Shown: positions 31,587 to 32,884 of the stretch, one piece after another
Position numbering within the stretch: the stretch's first letter is position 1
Layout: each line of letters starts with the position of its first letter
From: Geothrix sp.
GTDB lineage: Bacteria > Acidobacteriota > Holophagae > Holophagales > Holophagaceae
Length of the DNA stretch: 64,000 nucleotides
Assembly: GCF_030219325.1 (NCBI RefSeq)
Contig: NZ_CP126625.1
Span: 1,910,857-1,974,856, forward strand
Direction: 5' to 3'
Translations under genes and position numbers: made by a program
Notes under the pieces: model-generated
Database searches by the model: none
What the model was told of the DNA's origin: nothing
The model's input: the letters and a program-made list of their open reading frames with translations, nothing else

Positions 31587-32618
<1,032 letters not shown>

Positions 32619-32683: not shown

Positions 32684-32712
32684 TTGACGATCCGTGAAAG
32701 TCGCCGATAAGG
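32684..32712 (+). promoter_or_regulatory. Candidate sigma-70 promoter for the asnB leader
   Basis: TTGACG (32684-32689) followed after 16 bases by GATAAG (32706-32711). Transcription would start near 32718, just upstream of the leader ORF's AGG and ATG. Spacing fits; the -10 match is imperfect. Confidence 0.5.
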
Positions 32713-32729
32713 TTCTATCAGGCCATCCC

Positions 32730-32816
32730 ATGACCCTTTCCCACCAGCGGTTCAACCGCAATACCAATCGGCTCCCTCGCGCGGATCGCGCGTGGGCCGG
32801 CAAGGGTCTCTCCTAA
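32730..32816 (+). CDS. Asn-rich leader peptide of the asnB attenuator
   Basis: A 28-codon ORF (ATG 32730, TAA 32814-32816) lies between a candidate promoter and asnB. Codons 9, 11 and 13 are AAC, AAT, AAT, giving N-R-N-T-N. An AGG (32720-32722) seven bases before the ATG is a weak ribosome-binding site. It is followed by an intrinsic-terminator stem and then by asparagine synthetase. This order of leader peptide rich in the end-product amino acid, competing stems and terminator is that of classical ribosome-mediated attenuators (trp, his, leu). Translation of the leader is inferred, not shown. Confidence 0.65.
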   Translation: MTLSHQRFNRNTNRLPRADRAWAGKGLS

Positions 32817-32873
32817 GATTCCTGACACCCCGGACCACCCCGATTCGCGAAGGCGGATCGGGGTTCTTTCTTT
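32778..32873 (+). promoter_or_regulatory. asnB transcription attenuator (competing hairpins)
   Basis: Three mutually exclusive pairings are visible. (a) CGCGC/GCGCG at 32778-32792 forms a small hairpin. (b) CGCGGATCG (32780-32788) can pair over 9 bp with CGATTCGCG (32841-32849), an antiterminator. (c) CCCCGATTCGC (32838-32848) pairs with GCGGATCGGGG (32853-32863), about 11 bp, followed by TTCTTTCTTTTT, an intrinsic terminator. GCGGATCG occurs identically at 32781-32788 and 32853-32860, so the 5' arm of the terminator has two competing partners. A ribosome held at Asn codons (32754-32768) would sit against hairpin (a) and favour (b). Confidence 0.7.
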
Positions 32874-32884
32874 TTGGAGCCAAG

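Follow-up and report, generated by a model that had tools for sequence, protein, structure and literature searches.

The window, that is the whole 64-kb stretch of DNA that was analysed, belongs to the 3.73-Mb genome of a Geothrix-type soil bacterium (Holophagaceae, Acidobacteriota). In this stretch, tdh lies upstream of asnB and is read in the opposite direction; therefore the 266-bp intergenic stretch is asnB's own control region. Its features are collected in Table 1, together with the related leaders considered below. An earlier reading of the window, made from the letters alone, had described a promoter-like pair, a 28-codon ORF with Asn codons at positions 9, 11 and 13 and a small hairpin at 32778-32792 (CGCGCG/CGCGCG), and all of these lie where it had put them. 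The T-rich tail ends 9 nt before the asnB ATG, as described, and the terminator stem, placed at 32838-32863, is seen there and reaches 12 bp when the closing A-T is counted.

Table 1. Features of the asnB control region (window positions) and of related leaders (locus and genome positions; G000 is the genome of the window)
Feature	Position	Strand	Basis or remark
tdh, L-threonine 3-dehydrogenase, divergent neighbour, outside the switch	31587-32618	-	NF003808, 608.8 bits (cut-off 380)
Promoter-like pair: TTGACG 32684-32689 (-35-like), 16-nt spacer, GATAAG 32706-32711 (-10-like)	32684-32711	+	sequence
Leader peptide gene, 28 codons, MTLSHQRFNRNTNRLPRADRAWAGKGLS (stop)	32730-32816	+	ORF translation; frame kept in 41 type-1 leaders
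Control codons AAC CGC AAT ACC AAT (Asn 9, 11, 13); last Asn codon 32766-32768	32754-32768	+	translation, alignment
Protector hairpin (1:2), 32770-32774/32794-32798 and 32778-32783/32787-32792	32770-32798	+	minimum-energy fold, no ribosome
Antiterminator 5′ strand (region 2)	32780-32800	+	folding with a ribosome at the Asn codons; in 35 leaders, 98% of pair cells retained
Antiterminator 3′ strand (region 3), overlapping the terminator 5′ arm	32830-32848	+	folding, pair conservation, shuffles, ribosome walk
Intrinsic terminator stem-loop (3:4), 12 bp including closing A-T, -22.9 kcal/mol	32837-32864	+	terminator scan, folding, alignment
Terminator T-rich tail TTCTTTCTTTTT	32864-32875	+	sequence, terminator scan
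asnB ribosome-binding site GGAG	32876-32879	+	sequence; kept in alignment of relatives
asnB, glutamine-hydrolysing asparagine synthetase, 570 aa	32885-34597	+	NF006949, 814.8 bits (cut-off 499)
DAHP synthase (aroFGH) leader MSHRFTYPYWSPRADRAWRGQGPS (stop) and terminator	L168 400-518, G000:C1:3080499-3080617		asnB scaffold, aromatic control codons
Phe-rich leader MLISRRFFAFSFRTSGARPGGV (stop) and terminator before pheA	L190, G000:C1:482576-482688		orthologues in many family genomes
Pro-rich leaders and terminators before proB, proC, proBA fusion	L169 (G000:C1:2631360-2631483), L182, L183, L185		
Asn leaders NNRNN... before AsnRS-like 'asparagine synthetase A' gene	L174, L175, L176		
Ile leader MTPSARLIPAAIAIISREGA (stop) and terminator before threonine dehydratase ilvA	L191, G000:C1:2011664-2011776		Ile stretch RLIPAAIAIIS
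Gln leader MRSSSRQQQQNPRPPANREGTREGRG (stop), QQQQ, and terminator before ammonium transporter amtB	L179 422-543, G070		single case
trpE leader MLLSFPIPCQGLSSEAWWWRTG..., three Trp codons (AWWWRT), and terminator	L262, upstream of G000:C1:1858464		by inspection

The promoter-like pair of the window scores under the threshold of a consensus scan. At the same position, relatives carry TTGACG with better -10 boxes, TATGAT or TATCAT. This conserved promoter supports transcription beginning upstream of the leader, with a start expected near 32718. The leader ORF was compared with all short ORFs of 12-60 codons on both strands of the window (n = 394). Only three of them have at least three Asn in five codons, and among these three a terminator follows within 90 nt only at the asnB leader. 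Within the window, an Asn-rich leader with a terminator is more than chance would give.

The leader RNA has more structure than dinucleotide shuffles do (z = -3.46), and without a ribosome the window RNA folds into the protector hairpin and the terminator. GCGGATCG occurs in two copies, at 32781-32788 and 32853-32860, each able to pair with the terminator 5′ arm, as the sequence-only reading had pointed out. The predicted antiterminator helix is longer than this 8-mer, joining 32780-32800 with 32830-32848. As to the energies of the two states, the antiterminator does form before arm 4 exists, at about -31 kcal/mol; once arm 4 is made, however, the terminator fold is the lower one, at -40.5 kcal/mol. 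Because the terminator fold is lower at equilibrium once region 4 exists, the switch decision must be kinetic, which is the general view of ribosome-mediated attenuators.

The influence of ribosome position on the fold was followed in a ribosome walk, in which the footprint was masked to A-site +12 and the folded RNA was that made before the terminator 3′ arm. With Asn 9, 11 or 13 of the window leader in the A-site, capture of region 3 by region 2 was 0.90. It fell downstream, to 0.80 at Arg14, 0.52 at Pro16, 0.02 at Asp19 and 0.00 at the stop codon. A ribosome waiting at the last Asn codon thus stands at the limit of the positions that lead to antitermination. Ribosome-free capture in the window RNA was 0.02. 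Walks on 25 leaders of several classes gave a similar picture for most of them, and in most classes walked the cognate-codon run ends about where capture collapses. Many of the walked relatives differ from the window in that capture of region 3 occurs even with no ribosome present and the protector is weak. The protector is therefore not universal: the role that had been given to the first hairpin appears to hold in the window's genome but not in every relative.

To see how far the arrangement is conserved, asnB upstream DNA was compared from 49 other Holophagaceae genomes with a readable asnB start. An Asn-rich leader followed by a terminator precedes asnB in 45 of these 49 relatives, 40 with a leader of the window's kind (type 1) and five with another (type 2). 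Frame, Asn codons, stop and terminator are all retained in the 41 type-1 leaders, that is the window and 40 relatives, and 41 of 41 have an Asn codon at a distance of exactly 48 nt from the stop. Gaps inside the type-1 ORF measure 3 or 6 nt, multiples of three, and gaps 3′ of it have other sizes. AAT makes up 62% of the Asn codons in the leaders as compared to 13% in asnB genes; this excess could in part be due to RNA constraints. No leader was found at asnB in four of the 49 genomes (L120, L125, L126, L127). In one of these (L120, in G035), leader and terminator are absent and a TTGACG...TATAGG promoter abuts the asnB ATG, so that the switch seems to have been lost here by a natural deletion. 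With leader plus terminator as the criterion, nothing was found in front of the close AsnB homologues from beyond the family (L017 in that set is Geothrix).

Type-2 leaders were found in five of the six genomes of genus g9, which is not the window's genus. They are Asn-rich with a different sequence, for example MTFASVNFANINPPPGWSW, and have their own 1:2, 2:3 and 3:4 helices: a protector CGCCAAU/AUUGGUG, an antiterminator of GGGGUGGAG with CUUCCGCCCC, and a terminator. Their antiterminators exceed shuffles modestly (mean z about -1.8), and the useful stall is at the Asn preceding the last one. These leaders bear on covariation of the stems, which the sequence-only reading had expected among relatives. 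Within type-1 leaders, no compensatory change was found for any pair of the arms, because the arms hardly vary among such close relatives. However, arms 2, 3 and 4 differ together in the second genus and in the leaders of other genes described below, and these two sets appear to give evidence equivalent to compensatory change.

Related leaders with other control codons were searched with two covariance models, R1, built from asnB leaders only, and R2, a second model that added pheA and ilvA in the window's genome. R1 by itself recovered loci in the family before DAHP synthase, pheA, proB, proBA, proC, the AsnA-like gene and amtB. Downstream genes were identified by NCBIfam and tblastn. Leaders before DAHP synthase I read RFTYPYWSPRADRAW and HHHYYRPSRADRAW, and those before DAHP synthase II FFYYFGF (Tyr/Trp/Phe). 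pheA is preceded by Phe codons (RRFFAFSFRTSG), proB and proBA by NPRPNHPTP and proC by TPRPSLPPPGAP; the four Pro-rich loci of Table 1 are candidate proline attenuators. In G053, G054 and G071, an AsnA-like gene whose NCBIfam match falls under the curated cut-off is preceded by the Asn leader NNRNNASPSANRAW. A search for asnB in G053 and G054 found none, and G071 has both asnB and the AsnA-like gene. The trpE leader of the window's genome is a separate candidate, for a Trp attenuator. No such leader was seen by eye at leuA. hisG was rejected as a leader-bearing gene since it is internal to an operon, and L170 was rejected as a member of the scaffold since it is a false match inside a coding region. 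Two further loci were recorded. At L173 (G071:C114), a leader MSLVHPQIKRNTNLPRVDRAWAG (stop) and terminator precede a 579-aa protein with no Pfam or NCBIfam match. At L172 (G069:C3), a good Asn leader has no synthetase gene behind it and the sequence diverges within the terminator 3′ arm; this may come from an assembly join or from decay of the copy.

With the trpE class counted, enrichment is highest for the cognate residue in 10 of the 11 leader classes, and second highest in the other. The control codons stand in a common register in the leaders of asnB, the AsnA-like gene and DAHP synthase I, at 45-48 nt from the stop. R1 scores for these three are mostly E 1e-9 to 1e-22, which supports their homology. 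For pheA and proC leaders the case for homology to the scaffold is moderate, and proB and ilvA leaders may have converged on a similar terminator. Antiterminator pairing is above shuffles in most classes, although not in the second proC group, and it is weak for many pheA leaders. Across 396 Acidobacteriota genomes, R2 matched in Holophagaceae only, except for five weak matches, at none of which a cognate leader precedes a biosynthetic gene that matches it. Overall, these comparisons make it likely that Holophagaceae have homologous attenuators forming a modular family, in which one scaffold was copied before different genes and its control codons were exchanged in register (Asn for asnB and AsnA-like, Tyr/Trp for DAHP synthase), with Phe at pheA, Pro at proB and proC, Ile at ilvA and, in one genome, Gln at amtB as further members.

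The match between codons and genes also helps to weigh other readings of the asnB leader. The terminator is strong by itself, at -22.9 kcal/mol, and could be constitutive or otherwise regulated, for instance by a protein- or Rho-dependent attenuator, with the leader ORF incidental; the fixed 48-nt Asn spacing, the three-base indels, the biased Asn codons, the codon-gene match among related leaders and the footprint-dependent folding make this very improbable. We give equally little credit to control of asnB translation, instead of transcription, by hiding of the ribosome-binding site. The tail does end 9 nt from the ATG, with GGAG directly after it, but the stem-loop with its U-rich tail is a textbook example of an intrinsic terminator, and relatives differ in how far the tail lies from the ATG. 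Least probable of all is arrest by the nascent peptide, with a RADRAW segment in the exit tunnel, in place of tRNA charging: RADRAWAGxG is strongly conserved across type-1 leaders, but its RADRAW segment is encoded by region 2 and is conserved because that RNA pairs, the segment is missing from type-2, proline and phenylalanine leaders, and it is at the control codons that residues vary from one target gene to the next.

Found together at asnB are a cognate leader ORF, a terminator between its stop and the gene, and an antiterminator that depends on ribosome position (in silico, 0.90 versus 0.02), in a genome with an asparaginyl-tRNA synthetase (AsnRS; TIGR00457, 440 bits versus a cut-off of 342.6). 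As AsnRS is present, free asparagine sets the charging of Asn-tRNA. From the computed anatomy, conservation, folding and codon-gene match, we are confident that the asnB leader is a ribosome-mediated transcription attenuator, turning asnB on when Asn-tRNA is short. The sequence-only reading had proposed an attenuator answering to asparagine shortage; this is supported by the footprint-dependent folding and by conservation, an open frame with Asn codons being kept in 45 of the 49 relatives. Separately, AsnRS scores 616-631 bits in G050, G051, G069 and G071 as compared to about 425-448 elsewhere in the family; AsnRS is thus of two kinds here, which may have been exchanged by transfer.

In the proposed switch, RNA polymerase would start near 32718 and a ribosome would follow it on the leader ORF. 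With ample charged Asn-tRNA, the ribosome would reach the stop and cover region 2; region 3 would then pair with region 4, the terminator would form and asnB would stay untranscribed. When Asn-tRNA is scarce, the ribosome would wait on the Asn codons with region 2 just outside its footprint, and the free region 2 would pair with region 3 before region 4 is made, so that no terminator would form and asnB would be transcribed. Without translation, the protector would close region 2 in the window's genome, and termination would be expected. A response of asnB to asparagine in the cell is what this model predicts.

Asn-specific T-boxes of Firmicutes, found upstream of asparagine genes, sense the charging of Asn-tRNA through a terminator/antiterminator switch and bind the tRNA directly, without translation. 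The asnB leader is likewise such a switch for Asn-tRNA charging, but it has a conserved leader ORF. An Rfam scan of the window at the gathering threshold gave only three tRNAs, and no T-box, riboswitch or other cis-regulator at the asnB leader. Candidate uORF attenuators with tandem cognate codons have been proposed computationally before cysS and other genes (PMC8632094, RNA Biol. 2021). The asnB leader resembles them in its tandem cognate codons, whereas genes, amino acids and lineages differ, and the text of that paper holds no asparagine leader. A survey of premature terminators predicted many attenuators, Acidobacteria included, though almost no acidobacterial prediction had an associated function, and its text holds no asparagine leader either (PMC2965389, Genome Biol. 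2010). The earlier remark that no described leader-peptide attenuator is known for asnB in this kind of organism agrees with the open full-text literature searched, in which no Asn leader-peptide attenuator was found. The Asn specificity, the phylum and the codon-swapped scaffold therefore appear undescribed in the open literature, a novelty that is provisional. With the present leaders, the range of amino acids that leader-peptide attenuators sense would widen to asparagine, and to proline biosynthesis, within a phylum that had hardly any attenuator of assigned function.

The mechanism itself is known, the anatomy being that of a classical ribosome-mediated attenuator. In the trp, his, leu, thr, ilv and pheA attenuators of E. 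coli, a leader peptide rich in the product is followed by mutually exclusive 1:2, 2:3 and 3:4 helices, with the terminator before the gene. The asnB leader has the same anatomy; it differs in sensing asparagine, in its target asnB and in belonging to Acidobacteriota. The Holophagaceae leaders as a group differ further from those of E. coli in that different amino acids are served on one RNA scaffold. For specialists, the surprise would lie in this reuse of one scaffold through exchange of its control codons: it offers a natural series in which few codon changes retarget one scaffold, so that the origin of attenuators and changes in their specificity become directly testable.
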